Assembly: GCA_963205105.1 (NCBI GenBank)
Contig: CAUJJW010000364.1
Coordinates: 1-64,000 of the forward strand
Direction: 5' to 3'
Source: Verrucomicrobiota bacterium
Lineage (GTDB): Bacteria > Verrucomicrobiota > Verrucomicrobiia > Limisphaerales > CAIMTB01
DNA length: 64,000 nt
Shown here: positions 2,705 through 45,193 of the stretch, piece after piece
Layout: every line of letters begins with the position of its first letter
Position numbering within the stretch: the first letter of the stretch is position 1
Position numbers and translations under genes: made by a program
Notes under the pieces: generated by a model
What the model saw: the letters and a program-made list of their open reading frames with translations, nothing else
Told to the model about the DNA's origin: nothing
Database searches by the model: none

Positions 2705-3901
2705 TTACCGCCGGCGTCCCCCAGCCCCGCCCCCGCCTCGACTCATCGCTCCGCGATGGCTGGATTGCCTCGCCCCGGCCCCCCCGCCTCCGCTTCCGAA
2801 GGCGCTCGTATGGGATCCTCCGGAGGCAGGCGCTGCCGTCGCGCGACCGCTGGAGGGACTGGGACTCGGCCGACCGGCCGCCGGCGTCGTGGCCGGTCTC
2901 GGGGCGGCGGATGAAGCCACAGGAGATGGCCTGGCCGCTGGAGCGGCACTGGTTGCCGCAGAACTCCACCCTCGCGATTGCGCCGTGTTGGCGGAGGGCT
3001 TGGCGGTCATCGCCCCCGAAGTGCTCATGCGATTCGAGTCCGGCTGCCACTTCTGGGCCGTCGTGGTCGATCGGTTGATGTTATTAACGTTTACGTTGTT
3101 GTTGTTGATGTTGACGTTTCGATTGATGTCGATGTCGACATCCCCGTGGTACCCTCCCCCGCCACCCCACACGGCAACACCATGGTGTCCCACGTAAATG
3201 CCCCCGCCATGCCAGTCGCACGTGTTGTTAGCAATGATCGCCCCCACCGCCACGCCGACGGCGAACGTGATCACGGGCGGCGGCCCCACATAAACCGGCG
3301 GAGGGTAGTAGATGGTCGGCGGGTAGGTCGGGACGTACACCACCTGCGGATTCGCCGGCTGAATCTGGACGACCGTGTTGGTCACCACGACAACCTTCGT
3401 CTCGATGGTCTTTTCGATGATGGTGTTGGTGACCACGATCACCTGCTGCGGGGTGGTCTTGAGAACCCCGGCTGAGTTGGCCTTGGCACGCAGCATCTGG
3501 ATGGTGTCCATCAACTCCTTGGGCTGCTGTACGAACGCCTGCCCCAGACTCATCGTCCAGGTGAGGTCCTCGTTCATCTTCCGGATCATGTCCGGAAACT
3601 TGGCCACGGCCTTCACGTTCTCGTCCCAGGGCTGCTCATCGACTTTGGCGATATTGTTCGTGTCCTGGATGAACCGGGCCGCCTGCACGATCTCCAGGGG
3701 ATACACCGACGCCGGCAAAACAATGGCGATCAAGGGATCTGGATGAAGGGCGATGGGCGCCACCAGCTTTTCCAGGTCCGCGGCGCTGGCCTGGGGGGGA
3801 GCCGAAGGAGGCGGGGCCGCTCCGGTCGACTGAGCGCGGACACCCAACCCAAGGGTGAGGCCCAGTGCGACCATCAAAAGCCGGAAGATCATCGTGTTCA
3901 T
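2705..3901 (-). CDS. DUF3300 family secreted protein with low-complexity tail
   Basis: I use the start at 3901 (MNTMIFRLL), which puts a clean signal peptide at the N-terminus; a longer reading frame upstream to 3997 has no signal-like start. The DUF3300 core begins with LEKLVAPIALHPDPLIAIVL and continues through the family's 'QAARFI' and 'PQVVYVPTYPP' regions. A hydrophobic segment (ITFAVGVAVGAII) follows, then an Asn/Val/Asp-rich stretch (nt about 3080-3135) typical of the family. The C-terminal third is Ser/Ala/Pro then Gly/Arg rich and probably disordered. Function is unknown. It is first in a likely operon with DUF2950 and the sulfatase. Confidence 0.85.
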   Translation of the reverse strand: MNTMIFRLLMVALGLTLGLGVRAQSTGAAPPPSAPPQASAADLEKLVAPIALHPDPLIAIVLPASVYPLEIVQAARFIQDTNNIAKVDEQPWDENVKAVAKFPDMIRKMNEDLTWTMSLGQAFVQQPKELMDTIQMLRAKANSAGVLKTTPQQVIVVTNTIIEKTIETKVVVVTNTVVQIQPANPQVVYVPTYPPTIYYPPPVYVGPPPVITFAVGVAVGAIIANNTCDWHGGGIYVGHHGVAVWGGGGGYHGDVDIDINRNVNINNNNVNVNNINRSTTTAQKWQPDSNRMSTSGAMTAKPSANTAQSRGWSSAATSAAPAARPSPVASSAAPRPATTPAAGRPSPSPSSGRATAAPASGGSHTSAFGSGGGGAGARQSSHRGAMSRGGGGAGGRRR

Positions 3902-4386
3902 AATGGTTCTGTAGCCCCAAATCCTGGGACCCTCGTGGCAACGTGAATGGGCAGTTGAGGCAGTGCCGAGAATCAAGCGATGGGCCCGAAGAAGCATCCT
4001 CGGGATTCGCTAATCGTGCGACGGAGGGTGAGGCATCGCCGCGACTTTGTCATGCCGCCATTTCAAGCTCGTGGGCCGCGGGGCTTATCTCCGTCTTGAG
4101 AATGGGAGATCCAAGCATCGGAGGGTTTTGGACAGGATTCACAGGATGAACAGGATTCACAGGATTCACAGGATTCACAGGATTCACAGGATTCACAGGA
4201 TTCACAGGATTCACAGGATTCACAGGATGAACAGGATGCTGAGCGGAACGATTCAGATGAAATCCATGGAGTTCACGCCAAGACGCCAGGACCTCGAATC
4301 GCCAACCCAAAGCGGATCCATCTGCGACTGGACGCCCCGGTGTTGCGACCCGTAATCATACCCGGCCCTCGATCCCGGGCGTCCCC
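3902..4386. other. 485-bp intergenic region dominated by a repeat
   Basis: No credible gene is seen. The open frames here arise from the 9-bp tandem repeat at 4132-4239, which keeps frames open on both strands (HRIHRI and NPVNPV translations). It separates the divergent DUF3300 and DevB-like genes and should hold promoters for both, but I could not identify convincing -35/-10 pairs. Confidence 0.6.
4132..4239 (+). repeat. 12 x 9-bp tandem repeat (ACAGGATTC) within a dispersed element
   Basis: Twelve consecutive 9-bp units can be read from 4132 to 4239. Nine are exactly ACAGGATTC; units 2 and 11 end in GA (ACAGGATGA) and the last ends in GC. The left flank (about 4085-4131, containing ATCCAAGCATCGGAGGG) and the right flank (AGCGGAACG near 4243-4251) are shared with the inverted copy at 20550-20660, where only about three units are present. 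Confidence 0.95.
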
Positions 4387-31907: not shown

Positions 31908-34487
31908 TCAGGGCCAGAGAAACCCCGGGTGCTTCGACTTTAACGCCGCCCGGAGTTTCGGGTATTCCGCTTTCCGCCACGCGGGCCAGTCCCGCGTCGA
32001 TGCCAGACGCTTGCCAGCCGGGTCCTGGATCCAGATGCGGATCGGCACGCGTCCCTCCGCAATCCGCGGATGTTCCTGGATCGGCAGGCAATCCAGCAGT
32101 TTGACCTGCACCTCCGGGACCGGTGGCGCCTCCGGCTCGTCGCGTTCCGTGGTGTAGGTCAACTTCCAGGGCTTGCCCTCCGGGACGGCGATCTGCAACG
32201 GGGCCAATTCGTCCACGAACGCCTGTTGATCCTTCGACAACACGCCGCGAAACGCCGGCAGCAACGCGGCGGACTGGGCATCGCGCCCCAGCGTCAGGCC
32301 GCGAAACGCCGTCTCCAAAGCCCGACGCCGTCCGTCGGTCCGCAGGGGGGGCAGCTCCAGTTCCGGAACCGCCACACGCAGGCATTCCACCCGACCGATC
32401 CATTGCTGCACGGCGTGATCGAGGTTGGGCAGGTCGAGCCAACCCTGAGCGACGGCGTCGGCGAGGCACCGGCCGGAGGCGACCGGATCCACGTCGCGCC
32501 GATGTTGCTGCTCCACCACCAGATCCAGGAACCGGATCACGTCGATCGCCGCCACGCGTTTGTGGGTCCGGTCGTAAAGATGTTCCAACCGCGAACTAAA
32601 ATGTTGGGGAAACATCTCCCGCAGCCACTCCAACTTCACCGCGGTGCACTGCGACAACAACGTCAGCGTCCCGCCCCGCCCGCTCACGTCACGCACGGAA
32701 GCCGCCACCAGCATCTTGGCCTTCTGGACGACACTCTCGCGCACCAACGTTCCGGTCCGGCCTTCCGTCAGTTCGCAGTCCAGCGTTCCCGAATCCTTCC
32801 GGATGCAGAGTTGATCGATGAACCCCGCCACCAGACATCGCTCCAGCGCTTCCGGCGAGGGCGCCTCCGAGGAGGCGGCGATCCCGGAAACCCACCCTTC
32901 GCGCCCGGCCAGATTCAGGATCTGGCGGTAGGTGTCCTCCACCTGGCGCGCGGTCTGCCCATGAATGGCGTTCCGACGACATTCCTCCGCAGAAAATCCG
33001 TGCTCTCGGGCAAATCGATGCGCCCGCAGCAGCGTGTGAAAATCGCTCGTCTCCTGATCCTCGAACGCTTCGCGTCGATCCTGAAGATGCCCCTCGTCGC
33101 GACCGATGCGAACCAGCAGATCGCGACCACTCACCAGCGCCGCGCACAGGGCCGCCTCCGGAACGCATCCCCGTTTTCCCGCCTCCACCAGCATCCGGCC
33201 AAACCGCGGGTGCATGGGCAGCCGCAACATCCGCCGCCCGATCTCGGTCAACTCCCCGTGCCCGGCATCGCCCGCGGCCAGCGCCCCCAGCGTGACCAGC
33301 AACCGTTCCGCCCGTTCCACCGCCTCGCGGTCCGGTCGGTCCAGCCAGTCGAACTCCACCGCGCGCTGCACACCCAGCGAATGCAGCAGCAGGACGGTCT
33401 CCGCCAAATCCGCACGCTGGATTTCGGGGGTGTTGCGGGCAGGGCGGCTTCGGTGGGAACCCTCGGTCCACAGGCGCCAGCACGTCCCCGGAGCCGTCCG
33501 TCCCGCCCGCCCCGCACGCTGGTCGGCCGAGGCCTGGCTGATCTCCTCGAGCAGCAACGTCTGGATCCCGCGCTCGGCATCGTACCGCGCCACCCGCGCC
33601 AGTCCGGCATCCACCACGTGCCGCACACCGTCGATGGTCACGCTGGTCTCCGCCACGTTGGTGCTGACCACGATCTTCCGTCGATCACTCGGCAGAAAGG
33701 CCCGATCCTGTTCCTCCGGCGCCAAGTCTCCGTGCAAGGCGATCAGGGTCACCTTCTCGCTCAGCCGTGCCGCCCCCAGTTCCCGGATCGTCGTCTGGAT
33801 CTCGCTCTTCCCCGGCATGAACACCAGGACGTCCCCTTCCCATCCGTTCGAAACGATCTCCTCGACCGCCGACACCGCCTTCTCCCACTCCGGCCGGGCA
33901 TCGGTGTAGTCGGTCCACCGAACTTCCACCGGATAGGTGCGTCCCTCCGAGGCCAGAATCGGAACCTCGGTCCCCAGATACCGCGCCACCGGCTCCGCCT
34001 CGAGCGTGGCTGACATCACGACGATCCCGAGATCCGGTCGGGACGTTCGTCGGAGGTCCTTCACCAGGGCCAGCGCGACATCGCTGAGCAGGTTCCGTTC
34101 GTGGAATTCGTCGAACACGACGATGCCCACGTCGGCGAGCGTCCGGTCATCCTGCAACCACCGCAGCAGAATGCCCTCCGTCACAAAGCAGAGGCGGGTG
34201 TCCCTGGCGATGTGGTCCTCGAAACGCACTTGATACCCCACGTCGCCGCCCAGCTTCCCGCCGCGTTCCCAGGCCACCCGGGACGCCACCGTGCGCGCGG
34301 CCACCCGGCGAGGTTGAAGAACCACAATGCGCTTCCCGCCGGCGAGCCCGGCGTCGAGCAGCATCTGGGGAACCTGCGTGGTCTTGCCCGAGCCGGTGGC
34401 GGCGACCAGCACGAGGCGTCCATGCTCGCGCAGGGCCGTCACAATCGAATCGTGCAGGTCCCAAATGGGCAGTTGTCCAGGGTCCAT
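31908..34487 (-). CDS. hrpB: ATP-dependent DExH helicase, HrpB-type
   Basis: An 859-residue helicase. Walker A is TGSGKTT (31-37), the DExH box is DEFH (125-128), motif III is MSATLE (about 156-161), and motifs V/VI lie in VVSTNVAETSVTIDGV and DQRAGRAGR. HA2-type winged-helix and helical regions follow. The C-terminus GRVPIRIWIQD ... HPGFLWP matches the HrpB C-terminal domain, and the length fits HrpB (about 800-850) rather than HrpA (about 1300). It is an RNA/DNA-dependent ATPase whose cellular role is poorly defined. It is convergent with aqpZ (29-bp gap). A partial copy lies at 20781-21168. Confidence 0.9.
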   Translation of the reverse strand: MDPGQLPIWDLHDSIVTALREHGRLVLVAATGSGKTTQVPQMLLDAGLAGGKRIVVLQPRRVAARTVASRVAWERGGKLGGDVGYQVRFEDHIARDTRLCFVTEGILLRWLQDDRTLADVGIVVFDEFHERNLLSDVALALVKDLRRTSRPDLGIVVMSATLEAEPVARYLGTEVPILASEGRTYPVEVRWTDYTDARPEWEKAVSAVEEIVSNGWEGDVLVFMPGKSEIQTTIRELGAARLSEKVTLIALHGDLAPEEQDRAFLPSDRRKIVVSTNVAETSVTIDGVRHVVDAGLARVARYDAERGIQTLLLEEISQASADQRAGRAGRTAPGTCWRLWTEGSHRSRPARNTPEIQRADLAETVLLLHSLGVQRAVEFDWLDRPDREAVERAERLLVTLGALAAGDAGHGELTEIGRRMLRLPMHPRFGRMLVEAGKRGCVPEAALCAALVSGRDLLVRIGRDEGHLQDRREAFEDQETSDFHTLLRAHRFAREHGFSAEECRRNAIHGQTARQVEDTYRQILNLAGREGWVSGIAASSEAPSPEALERCLVAGFIDQLCIRKDSGTLDCELTEGRTGTLVRESVVQKAKMLVAASVRDVSGRGGTLTLLSQCTAVKLEWLREMFPQHFSSRLEHLYDRTHKRVAAIDVIRFLDLVVEQQHRRDVDPVASGRCLADAVAQGWLDLPNLDHAVQQWIGRVECLRVAVPELELPPLRTDGRRRALETAFRGLTLGRDAQSAALLPAFRGVLSKDQQAFVDELAPLQIAVPEGKPWKLTYTTERDEPEAPPVPEVQVKLLDCLPIQEHPRIAEGRVPIRIWIQDPAGKRLASTRDWPAWRKAEYPKLRAALKSKHPGFLWP

Positions 34488-35190
34488 CGCGGATTAGGGC
34501 CCTCCCCCCCGGAACCATTGAGCTCGGGGAGAATCACGCATCAAAGGTCACGGTGTGTCTAACGCCGGCACCCTGGCGACAAACAGAGAGCTGTCAAGAC
34601 AGCATATCCATATCCCTCTTGTTCCCAGCATGTTGCATACTAAACTCGATCAAGGGCGACGAAGCCGTTGCTGCCAAAGCCCGAAGACCCCAAGGGCCCC
34701 CGACAGCAGCCAGCCGGTGCTCCCAGCATCCGGAACGTTGGAAACGGAGTTCTTCACGACAATGTTGTCGATCAGAAGATTGTAGCGATCGAACACATGG
34801 GTCGCTGCCGGCACCTCAAAGATGATATCCAACCAGCCCATCCCAGCCTGGGCCGAAGGCCCAGGAAGCGTTGCCCCGAAGTCTGCCGAGGGCTGAAGGC
34901 CCGACCCATCGGTGGAACGGGCTTTCAGCCCTCGGATTTCGGTGAAACCGCTGACCTGGGCCGTTGGCCCAGGCTGAGGTAGGACGGGCCGTTGGCCCTG
35001 GCACCCGGCTGGCTCACGCCTCACGGAGGGATCCTTCCATTCTGTCCAGACGCGGATCTCCATGTGCCGCGCATCCGTCGAAGCGGGCGTCTCGCCCCTC
35101 GGAATACCCGGTTCATCGGCCGTGACCTGGTCGATTTCGAACCGGTGGCTCTCCAGGCCGCTTCGCGTTCTTCCAACGCCGGAGAGGCTG
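34488..35190. other. Gene graveyard and dispersed repeats
   Basis: No intact gene. It contains the VPDSG-CTERM tail (34650-34845), a block of repeated palindromes (34846-35010) such as GCCTGGGCCGAAGGCCCAGG and a GGGCTTTCAGCCCT motif, and a further GACGCCC-type element (about 35075-35105). The long open frame on the minus strand is a chance joining of these pieces. Confidence 0.6.
34650..34845 (-). pseudogene. 3' remnant of a VPDSG-CTERM surface protein gene
   Basis: Read on the minus strand the frame ends with LLIDNIVVKN, SVSNVPDAGST, a hydrophobic helix (WLLSGALGVFGLW) and a basic tail QQRLRRP before the stop. This is the tripartite VPDSG-CTERM sorting signal (motif, TM, Arg cluster) known from Verrucomicrobiota, here with VPDAG. 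Upstream the coding similarity ends at a block of dispersed repeats, so the gene's 5' part has been lost or displaced. No start codon or signal peptide is present. Confidence 0.7.
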
Positions 35191-35577
35191 TCAGGGCTTG
35201 CGCTCTTTCGATTCGGCGGCGGCGATTTCGTCCCAAGACGGAGCGCGCCAAACATGCAGGCCTTTTCTGCCGCGGGAGCCGAGGAACCGTCCGTCGCGGG
35301 AGAATTCGGTACGCGCAAATTGCGATCCCTGGCCTTCCAGCGTCAGCAACGCCTCTCACAGGTTCGCGTCCCACACTTGGACGACCTCCATGCCGTCGCT
35401 GCCAATGCCCGTCTCATGCAGGAGGTCCGTCAGTCGAAGCGTCTGACTGGTTTCCTCGCGGGCCAGACGCGACGTGGCCAGGCAACGAAGCTCCTCGTAA
35501 ACCAGGGGCAGCAATTCGTTCCCCGCACGGCCGCCACCTTGATCCAGCCTCTCGATCAGCACCGTGACGTCGCTCAT
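35191..35577 (-). pseudogene. Deletion fusion of ECF sigma-factor head to WD40-kinase tail
   Basis: From ATG 35577 the minus strand encodes MSDVTVLIERLDQGG, ELLPLVYEELRCLATSRLA, then TSQTLRLTDLLHET, the N-terminal 55 or so residues of the planctomycete/verrucomicrobial ECF sigma family that is normally followed by a Ser/Thr kinase gene. Without a break it passes into VVQVWDANL, a stop (TGA at 35356-35358), then in the same frame EALLTLEGQG, FSRDGRFLGSRG and WRAPSWDEIAAAE before the final stop. That ending is the standard C-terminus of WD40-repeat kinases of those phyla. A large deletion has joined the two genes; the TGA is most simply a GGA-to-TGA nonsense change of a Gly codon. Confidence 0.85.
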
Positions 35578-35810
35578 ACCCGAAGCCTACCCCTCGGCGC
35601 ACTCTGTTGGAAAGCAGGCTGCCACGGGCAAAGGGGTTCGTTCTCACTCTTGTAGAGTGGAGTCCATACCCAAGGTGATGTCGCGTCGCCCAAAGGACCC
35701 GGGACCCGTGTCTTTACTCCTGCCCCTCACACGTTCGCTGGCGAGCCATTCGCACACAGAATGCGGCCCTCACATTTACCAAAGTGAGAACCGCTCCCTT
35801 TTCGTGGTTC

Positions 35811-36905
35811 TCAGCGATTCCGCCGCCGGATGGACTTCGGTTTTGGCTGGATACAGAGATGAGGGTCGGCGCCGATGGTGGCGCAGAGTTCGCGGACGAC
35901 CTGCTCGCGTTCGGCCAGATTGGCCGTGTTGAAGCGGAGGAAGAAGGGACGCTGTGCCCAGTCGAAGGGCTCGGGTGCCTTTCCGTGAATGTAGTAAAGC
36001 AGGGCCGCGAAGTGCACCGCCGCGGTCCCGTCCCGCGCCATCAGGCCGCGCAACAGGCTTTGAACGATTTCGGGCGGATGGAACTCCGCCACCTCGTCCA
36101 GCGCCTCGCTCAGGCCCGTGCCCATCTCGGACTGCTCCAGGGCATGGACCAGGGAATCGATGCGCTGCCGTTCCGTCACCAACTCAGGCGCATGGGCGCA
36201 CACGGCCAACCGAATCTTCGCGTCGCCCAGGGCCAGTGCTTCTTTCAGTGCCTTCTGCGCCCTCTTGGAATGGAGGGCCGCCAACGCCTGGATGTCCCGC
36301 CAATCATTGAGCCGCCGGTCCATCAGAAGGCTTTCGATGCGCTCCAATTCTTCCGGAGTCGCCTCCTTGAGAACCGAGAGGTCGTAGCCAATGCCGTCGT
36401 GCCATTTCTCGTGGGTGATCTCCATGCTCGCCTTGAAGCGGGCCACGGCGGACATGGGGTCGTCGCGGGATGGCTTCCGGACGGCGCCCTCCGCTGGAGT
36501 GAACCGTTCGGGATCAAAACCCTCCGGGGCCGAGCCCTGAGCCGCGTAGCGCGCGGCGTCGGCGGCGCGTTGCTTCGCTTCCAACTCGGCCCGAATGGCG
36601 TCCATGTCCGGCGGTGGCTTCGGTGGATGGGCCGGTTCCAGCACAAAATAATGGCGTTGCGCATCCGTGTATTCGCCGGAGTAGCCGCTGCAATCGCGGT
36701 CGTAAAAGTGGAGCTCCGGCGTCTTGACCCGCGGCCTCGTGGTCACCTCGCGGGCCAGCTTGATGTAGGCGCCGCAAGGAGCGGCGGGAAAGCTGTGGCC
36801 AAGTTCTTCAATCGAGTTTCCGGCGGCCAGCTCGGCCAAAACCAATTCGCGCAGCACAGCGGGAAACTTCACAAACTCCGGCTCGTGTTCCTCGGGAATG
36901 CTCAT
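35811..36905 (-). CDS. Unrecognised protein, last gene of a six-gene unknown cluster
   Basis: A 364-residue soluble protein; no signal peptide or TM. The N-terminal module (about 10-95) has the pattern ELVLAELAAGNSIEELGHSF, a CGAYIKLAR strand and YSGEYTDAQRHYFVLEP, which looks like a compact alpha/beta domain I have seen in hypothetical proteins but cannot name. A Lys/Arg/Glu-rich helix (about 105-125) leads to a helical C-terminal half with repeat-like helix pairs (LNDWRDIQALAALHSKRAQK and following) suggestive of HEAT-like repeats. It starts 16 bp after the 36922 gene, so it is co-transcribed with it. Confidence 0.7.
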   Translation of the reverse strand: MSIPEEHEPEFVKFPAVLRELVLAELAAGNSIEELGHSFPAAPCGAYIKLAREVTTRPRVKTPELHFYDRDCSGYSGEYTDAQRHYFVLEPAHPPKPPPDMDAIRAELEAKQRAADAARYAAQGSAPEGFDPERFTPAEGAVRKPSRDDPMSAVARFKASMEITHEKWHDGIGYDLSVLKEATPEELERIESLLMDRRLNDWRDIQALAALHSKRAQKALKEALALGDAKIRLAVCAHAPELVTERQRIDSLVHALEQSEMGTGLSEALDEVAEFHPPEIVQSLLRGLMARDGTAAVHFAALLYYIHGKAPEPFDWAQRPFFLRFNTANLAEREQVVRELCATIGADPHLCIQPKPKSIRRRNR

Positions 36906-36921
36906 GGGGTGGGATTCCCAA

Positions 36922-38241
36922 TCAACGGGGCTTCGGATCGGTGGGCAGCGGCTCCAGCCCGGTCCATTCCTTCATGTAGTAGCTCGCCACCCGGCAGACG
37001 CTGCCCTGCATGGCCCGGCTTTCCGGCCGGAGACGGGACAGCTCGAGGATCGTCTTGAGCTCGGGCGCGAAATCGCCGTTGGCCTTCTCGCGGAGCGTGC
37101 GCACGGCGACCATCCACGCACTGAAGCGGATCGAGACGTCGGCCGCGCCCTCGTAGGCTGGATCCTCTTCGACCGTCGTGGTGTTCACCTTGCGGATGCG
37201 CTGGGCGATATCCTGGCCGAATCGGGTCACCGACCCGATCCATGCCGGCGACGGAGTCGGCAGGTGCTCGATCAACCGCAACGCTTCGGCCGCCAACTCC
37301 GAGTCCTGCCCGAAGATCAGCTCCTGCATCTCGGCCTCGAAGGTTGGCTTGGCGGTCATTTTGGCGATGGCAACCGCGCGGCGATCTGGGCGGCTTACAT
37401 CCCGGGTGTAAGGAAACCAGGAGGCGAGGGGTCCATCGGCCTTCATGGCGTCGAACTCTGCCTGCTGTTCAGCGGCACGCTGGGCCTGAATCTCCTCAGC
37501 GGTGGGGCCTGGCGGCGGCTCGGCGATCTTCTGCACGCGGAAACGGTAGGATGGCTTCGTGTCCGGCCAGGGAGGATTCGGTGCGGGCGGGCGCGGGCTC
37601 CAGTCGCTCCACTCCAGAAACTCTCGTCCCGGTCGCGCCGGGAGGGGGACAAGAAAGCCCATGACCTGTTCACCGTTCAGCTTGAAGTCGAGCGAACGCT
37701 TGCCGCGCATCGTGAACAGCGCGACCTCGCCGGGCACAATCCAACGGCCGTTCTCCCGCCGTGCGTCCTTGGGGCGCAGAGTGCCGGACTCATGCTTGCG
37801 CCCGGTGTGGTTCACCACCGAGTAGAGCTCCATGGACGACACACCGGTCCCTTGTGCAGGCGGGTGGGTCACGCCGATCGGCAGGCGAAGCTCCACCTCG
37901 AGCGTCAAAGGACGACCGTCAATCTCCGGCGGGATGTCCGCCAGGGACCAGCACAGGCCGGTGATGACCGCGGCCAGGATCCCCAGCACGCCGACCGCCG
38001 CCCCAAACGTCTTCAGATAGCCGGTACCGTTCTGCGGAGCGAGCAACCCGGCGGTAACGAGACCCGTGATCAGGCCGACGATCGCGCCAAGCAGTGCCAG
38101 GCCGATCACGAAATAGCCGGAGCCGCCCTCGAAACTGGACACGCGATACCAGCGCACGCAGGCGTTGCCGATGAAGCCGCCGCCGAGGAGGCCCAGCGCG
38201 GCGGTCGGCAGGGAGATGAGGAAGTAGTAGATCCAGTGCAT
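36922..38241 (-). CDS. Unrecognised membrane protein with large soluble C-terminus
   Basis: A 439-residue protein. Three N-terminal TM segments are visible (about 5-25, 44-66, 80-100), followed by a soluble part of about 330 residues: a beta-rich domain (about 105-235), a Pro/Glu/Ala-rich linker (EEIQAQRAAEQQAEFDAMKA, about 255-275) and a helical end. No catalytic motif or known family is recognised. It is the second-last gene of the cluster: 32 bp after the 38274 gene and 16 bp before the 35811 gene. Confidence 0.7.
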   Translation of the reverse strand: MHWIYYFLISLPTAALGLLGGGFIGNACVRWYRVSSFEGGSGYFVIGLALLGAIVGLITGLVTAGLLAPQNGTGYLKTFGAAVGVLGILAAVITGLCWSLADIPPEIDGRPLTLEVELRLPIGVTHPPAQGTGVSSMELYSVVNHTGRKHESGTLRPKDARRENGRWIVPGEVALFTMRGKRSLDFKLNGEQVMGFLVPLPARPGREFLEWSDWSPRPPAPNPPWPDTKPSYRFRVQKIAEPPPGPTAEEIQAQRAAEQQAEFDAMKADGPLASWFPYTRDVSRPDRRAVAIAKMTAKPTFEAEMQELIFGQDSELAAEALRLIEHLPTPSPAWIGSVTRFGQDIAQRIRKVNTTTVEEDPAYEGAADVSIRFSAWMVAVRTLREKANGDFAPELKTILELSRLRPESRAMQGSVCRVASYYMKEWTGLEPLPTDPKPR

Positions 38242-38273
38242 GGGAGTTTAGAATAAGAACCAGCGGAACGCGG

Positions 38274-39557
38274 TCATGGCAGGTAGGGTCCCTGCTGCGA
38301 CGGCGGTGGCTCGCCCAGCAATTCGCGCAGGACAAGGGTGATGTAGCTCACCAGACTGGAGTCATGGCGGATCAACCGCCGTTGGAGTGCCTTCAAGGCC
38401 GCGAGCACATCCCCCGAGGCGAGCTTCAGATCGGCGATCACGACGAGAATCTCCTCGAACCGTCGGCAGCTCACGATGCGGCCCGGCACGTCGGGCAGCG
38501 GCTCGAACGAAAGCCCGTTCAGGATCTCGATCAGCACGTCCGCCAACCGGGGATCCACGGGCCGGGCTGCACGCGCCATCGCGATCCCGGCGCTTTGCAT
38601 CACAGCCTCCGAGCTTCGCAACGCGGTGACCATGACTTCAAAGGCGTCCGGACGGCGGAGCAGCCGCTCGACGGCGATCGCGCTGCCCGGGCTTCCCAGT
38701 TGGGCAAACGACAAAAGCCGAGGAAGGTCACTCTCCGGCGTGAGCCGCAGGGCCGCCTGAAAATAGCGGAACGCCTCCAGCTGCTTCGGCAGATCCACGG
38801 GCGGCTGGGCGGTGGGAAAACTGATTTCATAGGTCCGCCCCAGGAGCTTGCTTTCCAGTGCGTTCAGTTCGGCCAAGGTTTCGCAGCGGGTGTCGGCCGG
38901 CAGGTAGATGACGTCGCGCTGGTCGAGAACGGCTGTGGTCGGCCAGCGATTCAACCCGTGGCGGCGGACGGTGACACGGGACCACTGCGAGAGCCAGTGG
39001 AGGACCGAGGGCGAAACACCCACGGCGAGGTAGGCCAGCCAGGAGTTGCCGGTATGGCGGCCGTCATCACCGATGGTGCGGGTGACCGTGACGGTGCCGC
39101 AGCGCATGCAGGCTTTGACTCCGGAAAATTCGATCAACACCGCCCGATGAAGTGCGGGATCACAGTCGCAGGCGACGGCCACCTCGCCCAGGTTGGTCTC
39201 CGCCGGTGGATGCTGACCGGAGTAACTCGCGCCACGGACTCTCCGAGGCGGCTCGGCTTCAACCTTTGCCTCGCGAGGCGCTGGCAACGTCGTGCCTGGG
39301 TCATACGCGCCCACTTCGAAGTACTCCCGCATGCGGCCATTCCCGGGGCCGGTGGTCGAATCGAGCGCGAAGTGCAGTCGCTCGGGTGCGCCGTTGTGTT
39401 CCCAGTCGATCCATAGTTCGCGCTGAGCCCAATCCAGGCCCATCCGGCGAACAATGCCCGTCGCCCCAGCGGAATGTGAATGACCGCGTGCATCGGTGAA
39501 GTCGCGGAGCACGCACACGCCGTGGTCGGGCCGAAGATGATCGATGGTCATGGCCAT
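38274..39557 (-). CDS. Unrecognised protein with Cys-rich centre and repeat-like helices
   Basis: A 427-residue soluble protein with three visible parts. Residues about 1-80 are a small beta domain with the pattern GVCVLRDFTDARGHSHSAG and WIDWEH. About 125-165 contain CDCD and CMRCG, a possible zinc-binding pair of knuckles. From about 250 on there are helix-turn-helix repeats (PRLLSFAQLGSPGSAIAVER and following) like HEAT/Armadillo-type counting of subunits. No family name can be given. The cluster neighbours also carry helical C-termini, suggesting they may bind one another. Confidence 0.7.
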   Translation of the reverse strand: MAMTIDHLRPDHGVCVLRDFTDARGHSHSAGATGIVRRMGLDWAQRELWIDWEHNGAPERLHFALDSTTGPGNGRMREYFEVGAYDPGTTLPAPREAKVEAEPPRRVRGASYSGQHPPAETNLGEVAVACDCDPALHRAVLIEFSGVKACMRCGTVTVTRTIGDDGRHTGNSWLAYLAVGVSPSVLHWLSQWSRVTVRRHGLNRWPTTAVLDQRDVIYLPADTRCETLAELNALESKLLGRTYEISFPTAQPPVDLPKQLEAFRYFQAALRLTPESDLPRLLSFAQLGSPGSAIAVERLLRRPDAFEVMVTALRSSEAVMQSAGIAMARAARPVDPRLADVLIEILNGLSFEPLPDVPGRIVSCRRFEEILVVIADLKLASGDVLAALKALQRRLIRHDSSLVSYITLVLRELLGEPPPSQQGPYLP

Positions 39558-41783: not shown

Positions 41784-41974
41784 GACAGTGGATGTATTGC
41801 GACGGTCTTTCGGTGAACCGTTGCAGTGCGAGATCGTTGGGTAACCGGCGGGCGGGACGGAATCGGACTTTGGTCGGAACAATGTTCATCCCGTGAGCCG
41901 GTGGTTTCTGACTTTCGTCCGAGGCAGCCAGTTTCGCGTCGTCTGCGGCGCCCCGCTTGTCTAACTAGTTGCCG

Positions 41975-44900
41975 GTGTCCGACGTGTTCAATACGCCAGT
42001 CCCGCCCGCACCCGATTCAGGTCCGGGCGACAGGGCGACACTTCGCGATTCGCTCAGGCGCAGTCTCCTGAGGGCAAACACCGTGGTGGGCGTGGTTCTG
42101 GCCACGGTGCTGACCCTGGCGGCGGCCGCGTGGTGGCAGGGATTCCGCGCAACCCGGATGCAGTCGGTGGCCACCCGCGAACAGGTGCGGGCCGAGCACG
42201 CGGAAGCGTCGTCGCAGCGGGAACTGGGGCGCGCCCTGCTGTCGGAAGCCCGGGCTACCCGCGTCGGGCAGGGGCTCGAACGCCGCCAGGAAGCTCTCGA
42301 AGCGATCGAGCGCGCGGCGGTCATCGCTCCGAATGCCGAGCTTCGCCAGGAGGCTGTCGCCGCCCTCGCCCTGCCCGAGTTCCGCCTCGAGGCGTCCCTC
42401 CCGCTCGACGATTCCGTACGGGCCTACGAGTTCGATCCCGAGCTTCGGCACTGTGCCCTCGGCCTGACCCATGGCGACGTGGTGATCCAGCGATTGTCCG
42501 ACGGCGCGGAAGTCCGTCGGTTTCGCCCTCAGGACGGCCCGGTCCCCAGCGACCAAGGCCCGCCGTTGCTGATGGATTTCAGCCCCGACGGCTCGCTGAT
42601 CACCGTGCGCTACAGCCGCGGTGCGTTCGCGGTTTGGGAACTGTCGTCGGGGCGGATGCGATTCCTCCGGGACGCCGATCAGCTGCGGCGACCGGCTAGT
42701 CGGGCGTTGTTCAGCAGCGATGGCCGCGCAGTCGTGGCCCCGGTTTTCACGCCGGACGGATTCGAGGTCATGGACGCGCAGACCGGCAACACGCTGGCCC
42801 ATTTCCCACAGATCGGCTCGTTCCATCACGCGGCGGTGCGTCCGGGAACGAACCAGTTCGCCGCCTATGCCGACGGGAAGGTGTGGCTGCTCGACTGGGC
42901 CACGCGCGAGGCGAGGGTCGAACTCCCCTTTCCCGCCGGCGCCCGGCGTCTGGCGTGGAGTCGCGACGGCCGGCAGTTGGCCGTGGTGGGCAATCAGCTG
43001 GAAGCCGAGGTGTGGAACCCGGAAAGCCGGCAGGTTCGGCGGTTATCCGGGCACCGGGACAGCCTCTTCGACGTCACGTTCGACCCCGCGGGCGAGCGGC
43101 TGGCGACCGCATCCTTCGACGGCACGTCTCGGCTCTGGGATCTGCGCGATGGCCGCCTGCTCGGGGAGACCACCGACCGACGTCTGATCCGCTGGGGGAC
43201 GGAGGATCGCTCGGGCTGGTCGGTTTCCCGGGCGCAGTTGGAGGTCCGCAAGCATTCGGCCAGCCCTGCGTATGCCACACGGATCGGTGTCCCGGGGCAG
43301 GCCGACGGCATGACGCTCGATATCAGCCCCGACGGCAACTGGGCGTTGACCCGGGCCAACTCCGGCGACCTGTTGATCTGGAACTTGTCCGAACCGGGTG
43401 CCCCGGAGGTCGGGCAGTACACTGGTGTCGAGTCGCTGTCCTTTCACCCAACGGAAGACCGATTGTTCCTGACCCGGGCAGGCGCGCTGGAGGAATGCGA
43501 CGTCACGGTGGGCACGAACTCCGGTCGCGCGTCGCTCCGTCTGGGTGCGCCGCGGCGGCTTCCCGGAGTTCCGGGGCGCGACCTGAATCTCGTCACCTCG
43601 TCGGCGAACGGATCCACCCGCGCCTACGTGCATCTGAATGCGGGCGCGATCTGGGTGGAGCACCTGGGCCGGGAACCTTCGATCGTCCCGCTCGAGAGGG
43701 TCCTGCACAGCAGTCTGGAAGCCCGTTCCGGCAGTGTTCGCGGTACCGGCACGATCGCGCTCAGCCCCGACGGCAAGTGGCTGGTCTGCGGGGCTGATGG
43801 CCATCTGGGAACGTACGCCTTCGACACGGGCACCGGCCGGCCGGTGGCCGCGCTGGACGACGCTTCCGGTGGCGTGCAGTTCAGCCCGGATGGCCGTTGG
43901 GTGCTGCTGGCCAGCAGCGACGGCTGCCGGCTCTTCCGGACCGACGATTGGAAGCCCGTCTGGAAACTGCCGAACGATCCGCGCACTCCCAGCTATGCCG
44001 GCGTGGCGGCGTTCTCACCGGACGGAAACCAGCTCGCGTACGCCGCATCGTCCCGCGGGGCCCGCCTGGTGGAGACCGCGACCGGCCGCACGTTGGCCGT
44101 GCTTGAGGCCCCGGCAGGTTCACCCCTCAACGGATTGCGCTGGACGGCGGATGGCCGACGCCTGGTCGGTGCCACGCGCGAGAACACGATCGATGTCTGG
44201 GAGCCGGCCGCGCTGCGACGCGAACTGGCGGGCCTGGGGCTGGACTGGGATCTGCCGGATTCGTCGGTTTTGGAGGAACCTTTCGCGCTGCCACTCGCGT
44301 CCGGCATTTCGCCCTGGATTGCGGGGGCGATTCCCCTGACCACCTTCGCGGTCGCGGCGGTGCTGTTGTTCGCGCTCCGGCGCCACCGGCAACTGATCGA
44401 GCAGTTCTCGCGGACCGAGGATCGGGCCTCGCGGCGTGAGCGGGAGTTGGCCGTGGAGCGCGAGGTGAACGAGCTCAAGGGCCGCTTTGTTTCCATGGTA
44501 TCGCACGAGTTTCGCACCCCGCTCGGCATCACGATGAGCGCTGTGGAGTTGCTCCGGAATTATCTCGATCGGCTGCCACCGGCGAAACTGGCCGAACTGC
44601 TCGACGACATCTACCACTCCACCCTTCGCATGTCCGGCCTCATGGAGCAGGTGCTGCTGCTGGGGCGCGTCGAATCCGGCCGGGCTGGTTTCCAGAGACT
44701 GGCGCTGAACTTGCCCGAACTGGTTGCGCGCATCGGGGACGAGGCCCAGTCCGCAACCCATCGGCGCTGCGAACTCCGGTTGCAGGCCGACGCGGCGGAG
44801 CTGGCGGAAGCCAGCGGGGATGAGTCGTTGCTCCGGCATATCCTCTCCAACCTGTTGTCCAACGCGGTCAAGTATTCGCCGCCTGGAGGCTGCGTGGAGC

Positions 44901-45193
44901 TCGGGGTCCGCCGTTCGGGCGACGAGGCTGTGTTCTCGGTGGTCGACCGGGGCCTGGGCATTCCCCCGGCGGATCAGGCGCGACTGTTTGAGGCGTTCCA
45001 CCGCGCCGCCAACGTGGGCCAGACGCCAGGGACCGGCCTCGGACTGCTGATCGTCAAACGCTGCGTTGATCTGCATCGGGGCCGGATCGAGTTCCAATCG
45101 GTGGAAGGTGCCGGCTCGACGTTTGTCGTTCGTGTGCCGTTATTCGGTACCAGCCCGGTCAACGCATATCCCGCGGTCCGCAGCAGCAACTGA
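41975..45193 (+). CDS. WD40 beta-propeller sensor histidine kinase
   Basis: About 1072 residues from GTG 41975 (a TTG at 41969 is also possible). TM1 (about 35-55) is followed by a coiled coil with EQVRAEHAEASSQRELGRAL and a helical bridge ending ALPEFRLEASLPL. A WD40/quinoprotein-like propeller follows (about 140-750, repeats of the type FSPDG...VWELSSG), then TM2 (about 780-805), a coiled coil, and the HisKA domain with SHEFRTPLG (His about 844). The HATPase domain has LSNLLSNAVKYSPP, DRGLGIP and GTGLGLLIVK. The TM-coil-WD40 part is laid out like the C-terminus of planctomycete Ser/Thr kinases, here attached to a histidine kinase. Partner: the response regulator at 45771. Confidence 0.9.
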   Translation: MSDVFNTPVPPAPDSGPGDRATLRDSLRRSLLRANTVVGVVLATVLTLAAAAWWQGFRATRMQSVATREQVRAEHAEASSQRELGRALLSEARATRVGQGLERRQEALEAIERAAVIAPNAELRQEAVAALALPEFRLEASLPLDDSVRAYEFDPELRHCALGLTHGDVVIQRLSDGAEVRRFRPQDGPVPSDQGPPLLMDFSPDGSLITVRYSRGAFAVWELSSGRMRFLRDADQLRRPASRALFSSDGRAVVAPVFTPDGFEVMDAQTGNTLAHFPQIGSFHHAAVRPGTNQFAAYADGKVWLLDWATREARVELPFPAGARRLAWSRDGRQLAVVGNQLEAEVWNPESRQVRRLSGHRDSLFDVTFDPAGERLATASFDGTSRLWDLRDGRLLGETTDRRLIRWGTEDRSGWSVSRAQLEVRKHSASPAYATRIGVPGQADGMTLDISPDGNWALTRANSGDLLIWNLSEPGAPEVGQYTGVESLSFHPTEDRLFLTRAGALEECDVTVGTNSGRASLRLGAPRRLPGVPGRDLNLVTSSANGSTRAYVHLNAGAIWVEHLGREPSIVPLERVLHSSLEARSGSVRGTGTIALSPDGKWLVCGADGHLGTYAFDTGTGRPVAALDDASGGVQFSPDGRWVLLASSDGCRLFRTDDWKPVWKLPNDPRTPSYAGVAAFSPDGNQLAYAASSRGARLVETATGRTLAVLEAPAGSPLNGLRWTADGRRLVGATRENTIDVWEPAALRRELAGLGLDWDLPDSSVLEEPFALPLASGISPWIAGAIPLTTFAVAAVLLFALRRHRQLIEQFSRTEDRASRRERELAVEREVNELKGRFVSMVSHEFRTPLGITMSAVELLRNYLDRLPPAKLAELLDDIYHSTLRMSGLMEQVLLLGRVESGRAGFQRLALNLPELVARIGDEAQSATHRRCELRLQADAAELAEASGDESLLRHILSNLLSNAVKYSPPGGCVELGVRRSGDEAVFSVVDRGLGIPPADQARLFEAFHRAANVGQTPGTGLGLLIVKRCVDLHRGRIEFQSVEGAGSTFVVRVPLFGTSPVNAYPAVRSSN

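Follow-up and report, generated by a model that had tools for sequence, protein, structure and literature searches.

A probable deletion remnant of a sigma factor/kinase-WD40 gene pair in a Verrucomicrobiota genome

We report a gene remnant in a 64,000-nucleotide stretch of a Verrucomicrobiota genome (contig CAUJJW010000364.1, positions 1 to 64,000; hereafter the window), in which the head of an ECF sigma factor runs, within one open reading frame, into the end of a Ser/Thr kinase-WD40 protein. The ORF lies on the minus strand at positions 35191-35577, 387 bases that make up 128 codons and a final stop (a 129-codon frame), and its translation reads MSDVTVLIERLDQGGGRAGNELLPLVYEELRCLATSRLAREETSQTLRLTDLLHETGIGSDGMEVVQVWDANL*EALLTLEGQGSQFARTEFSRDGRFLGSRGRKGLHVWRAPSWDEIAAAESKERKP*. 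Judging from the sequence, we regard it as a pseudogene that would have arisen by a deletion of about 4 kb within a sigma/kinase-WD40 pair and later acquired an in-frame TGA, a reading to which we assign a probability of roughly 0.9.

The sigma-factor head starts with an ATG at 35575-35577 and comprises residues 1-55 (35413-35577, minus strand). It is up to 60% identical to the heads of intact sigma factors and matches PF07638 Sigma70_ECF with an E-value of 3.3e-9 and 37.3 bits, against a gathering score of 21.1. With TIGR02999 (Sig-70_X6), residues 1-55 align to model positions 1-55 of 183 only, LLPLVYEELR included, and the score of 32.5 bits falls under the full-length cut-off of 126 bits, as expected of a fragment; an intact sigma paralogue on contig C43 of the same genome obtains 213 bits. 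Unlike the ECF sigma factors of the TIGR02999/PF07638 type, the remnant has nothing past position 55, neither the rest of region 2 nor region 4, and lacking the DNA-binding region and a score at the TIGR02999 cut-off it does not qualify as a full-length ECF sigma factor. The head departs from the family at five of 23 strongly conserved columns, where the median among 31 intact heads is one, and one intact head, from contig C43 of the same genome, likewise departs at five. The changes at columns that are nearly fixed in the family include Q48R, A51D and V53L.

From about residue 57-58 (IGSDG...) the translation corresponds, by tblastn, to the last WD40 blade and the C-terminus of Ser/Thr kinase-WD40 proteins (35191-35406, minus strand), ends in WRAPSWDEIAAAESKERKP and closes with a TGA at 35191-35193. 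Its identity to homologous tails is 61% (G227:C726), 56% (G007:C249) and 51-58% (locus L031, the same as G022:C469). The C-terminal blade and the ending, of the form W-x-APSW-x-EI, are those of the membrane-bound Ser/Thr kinase-WD40 proteins of the Planctomycetota-Verrucomicrobiota group (PF00069 plus WD40 repeats), with which the remnant shares WRAPSWDEIAAAE; in contrast to these proteins it has no kinase domain, no membrane segment and none of the other blades, its WD40 part being confined to the last blade and the C-terminal tail. The kinase domain with its HRDIKPxN motif, present in the intact relatives, is absent from the 129-codon frame. The matches collected to gauge how conserved the tail is comprised ordinary WD40 blades alongside true tails. 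The expansion of STK-WD40 proteins in Planctomycetota has been documented (PMC11032199). By their similarities, neither half of the remnant is a chance match. The first-pass annotation had proposed that a sigma head of about 55 residues is fused in frame to a kinase-WD40 end, and the PF07638 match and the tail identity of up to 61% bear this out.

The position of the join was obtained by comparing the DNA with the sigma and WD40 sequences of relatives. Codons 56-57, ACG GGC (35407-35412, minus strand), fully match neither side, so that the join lies within these six bases. The reading frame passes over it unbroken, in the 129 codons there is a single stop and no frameshift, and GC3 is 0.75 in the head and 0.73 in the tail, compared with 0.75-0.83 in neighbouring genes; these features speak against a pseudogene. 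As GC3 is still gene-like, the decay is probably not very old.

Five intact pairs from other genomes of the order (G007:C363, G129:C9, G218:C38, G109:C14 and G108:C506) show what the parent may have looked like. In each, the sigma gene, the kinase-WD40 gene and the remnant-type ending follow one another in that order on one strand, and the two points joined in the remnant are 3.7-4.2 kb apart, which makes an internal deletion of one pair the simplest origin. Formerly, an ECF sigma gene of the TIGR02999/PF07638 type and, downstream of it in the same orientation, a membrane Ser/Thr-kinase-WD40 gene would have stood intact at the locus. About 4 kb, from around sigma codon 56 to where the last WD40 blade begins, would have been deleted and the ends joined in frame, and the in-frame TGA would have come later by a substitution. 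What the DNA shows directly is the homology of both halves, their order and the place of the join. No intact parent copy turned up and the nearest intact relatives are only 50-60% identical, so that we infer the single deletion, its exact size and the sequence of events. The earlier proposal that a large deletion made the fusion thus stands insofar as the five pairs fit it and no relative carries a conserved fusion, with the single event as its inferred part. The spacing in some of the five pairs is not a multiple of three, and the frame may have been kept across the join by chance, at odds of one in three, or through the exact endpoints. Direct repeats were searched within 34487-35850, and the only ones found do not flank the join; nor did the DNA around both endpoints in the five intact pairs contain a shared stretch assignable to the lost parent.

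The remnant carries a TGA at codon 74 and has lost both functional cores, and intact relatives have its two ends in the same order. We would expect it to have no present function, because what is left is only part of sigma region 2 and roughly one blade out of many, while region 4 and the kinase domain are gone. It resembles the deletion-fusion pseudogenes of expanded bacterial paralogue families in its joined gene ends and later nonsense change, and nothing distinguishes it from them; its own two ends derive from a pair of genes linked in function.

The in-frame TGA (codon 74; 35356-35358, minus strand) falls in a column that is variable among homologues. In 22 homologous tails, read by eye from alignments and counted as distinct loci after removal of duplicates, this column holds Leu (7), His (4), Gln (3), Trp (3) and Arg (2), and Ser, Phe, Tyr and Gly once each. 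With Gly in only one of the 22, the suggestion of the first-pass annotation that the stop derives from a Gly codon, GGA, is unlikely; a single transition from Trp TGG or Arg CGA would be the likelier source.

Searches for the fused ORF in relatives covered several ranges. None was found at the protein level in the order, represented by a sample of 293 genomes, where matches cover only about residues 1-74 or 40-128, nor at the DNA level among 40 near genomes. The four genomes of the same genus hold no copy of the remnant in their DNA, with the limit that the G002 contig stops inside hrpB, so that the G002 version of the locus may be missing. Peptide patterns run against 84,980 species genomes revealed four relatives of the tail, none over 58% identical, and no fused ORF. 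The first-pass annotation had put forward a conserved fused gene in relatives as the finding to look for against its own reading; these searches gave no such gene and support the deletion. A literature search found nothing on the deletion of sigma-kinase pairs.

These results bear directly on whether the fusion could be a real small gene, whose product, a 73-residue fragment of sigma region 2, would compete with a complete sigma factor for either RNA polymerase or an anti-sigma factor. In its favour, the ORF retains its start codon, preceded by a GAGGGG-like stretch, and a conserved sigma head; no stop interrupts the first 73 codons, and GC3 is gene-like. Against these features stand the absence of the gene from the four same-genus genomes and from the 293 genomes sampled in the order, the altered columns named above (Q48R, A51D, V53L) that are otherwise nearly fixed, and the other gene fragments that surround it, and we consider a real small gene very unlikely. 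It is slightly more doubtful still that the 73-residue frame before the TGA continues to be made and competes with the full-length sigma factor, whereby deletion of the pair would have given rise to a new small regulator. Decoding of the TGA as an amino acid, which would yield an intact 128-aa protein, might be entertained since clear homology continues in frame beyond it; however, TGA terminates nine of the ten neighbouring genes that were checked, which makes it a true stop in this genome, and Rfam recognised no recoding element, so that we give this notion virtually no credence.

Other explanations accept both halves and question how they came together. With a draft genome in 412 contigs and a multi-copy repeat 33 bases away from the 3′ end of the remnant, one might suspect an assembly chimera between draft contigs. 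The join, however, is between unlike sequences inside a 387-base ORF, some 250 bases from the repeat; neither half recurs elsewhere in the genome at high identity, and hence there is no shared stretch to mislead an assembler. The in-frame TGA is moreover consistent with decay, and a chimera seems highly improbable. More room must be left for an origin of the two ends from different sigma-kinase units, brought together by recombination or by a deletion spanning a tandem array: in some genomes (L026, L113, L120, L125 and L135) kinase tails directly adjoin sigma heads on one strand, and in G227, the genome with the closest tail, the DNA examined upstream of that tail contains no sigma gene. Nevertheless, one pair already supplies the right order and strand, for which a single deletion is simpler, and there is no trace of a second unit around the fragment; we judge this course of events unlikely and favor deletion within one pair.

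At least two other pairs of sigma and kinase genes persist in the genome (contigs C43 and C107), and additional sigma paralogues lie on C394, C270, C201 and C276. The join had been taken initially as the loss of a whole signalling pair, which holds for one paralogous pair but not for the pathway, at least two pairs being left (C43 and C107). It was likewise too strong to say that a sigma gene of this type usually precedes a kinase-WD40 gene: among the intact kinases retrieved with a remnant-type tail and enough upstream DNA, five have a sigma gene directly upstream and several do not, and several sigma genes have no kinase motif within the next 1.5 kb. Two further cases indicate that breakage in the kinase-WD40 family is not unique to this genome. 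In a 200-aa ORF of G192:C197 (L137 4847-5446), the segment that follows the kinase domain, together with the first blade, runs directly into the last blade and keeps the ending seen in the remnant, and G227:C726 has a TAG in the homologous tail. Together with the remnant, these cases suggest that the family is under steady turnover. Sigma-kinase pairs are numerous in these genomes, and the remnant would be a clear snapshot of how they are lost, by a deletion within the pair that leaves both ends in place. By itself it matters little and represents ordinary gene decay.

On the minus strand the remnant follows gA (36905-35811) and is itself followed by the multi-copy repeat (35157-34838), by what is left of a PEP-CTERM-type gene, its 3′ end (34844-34650), and by hrpB (34487-31908). 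Separated from the end of the remnant by 33 bases, the repeat (34838-35157, no strand assigned) includes hairpins, and pieces matching it number at least 83 across the genome, many of them located at contig ends. It consists of two modules that are also found apart, a palindromic part (34838-35000) and an 81-base part (35075-35155), and left only a weak trace in one of the four same-genus genomes. Its hairpin at 34955-34999 resembles Rfam RF01687 Acido-Lenti-1 with 32.9 bits, under the gathering score of 37. The PEP-CTERM-type gene (34650-34844, minus strand) ends in VPDAGSTGWLLSGALGVFGLWQQRLRRP and is missing its 5′ part. It was identified by DNA identity to G004:C621, the region matching at 80% (query 3457-3974 vs. 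G004:C621:1313-1795). G004:C621 carries two whole tandem PEP-CTERM genes upstream of the hrpB start, which implies that the window has lost the 5′ portion of one such gene at the point where the repeat begins. With a truncated PEP-CTERM end and a multi-copy repeat beside the remnant, this stretch is a zone of gene decay and rearrangement.

An intact pair was not encountered at the corresponding position in the relatives compared: in G004 there is no sigma or kinase gene in the stretch from PEP-CTERM to hrpB, and hrpB there is cut short after some 55 codons, while G001 and G003 keep homologues of gA and gB and differ in the genes beyond. The nearest relative by HrpB is G002 (92%), whose contig ends inside hrpB. 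The hrpB helicase gene itself (31908-34487) is 92% identical to that of G002 and only 46-47% to those of other same-genus genomes, and a second hrpB of the same genome, on contig C353, is 47% identical. On the other side of the remnant, three adjacent minus-strand genes of 364, 439 and 427 aa (35811-39557) have no Pfam match; the first two are paired in G001 and occur singly, on separate contigs, in G003. Farther along, at 41969-45193, an ORF of 1074 aa is predicted, from its translation, to combine an apparent WD40-like propeller with a histidine-kinase domain.
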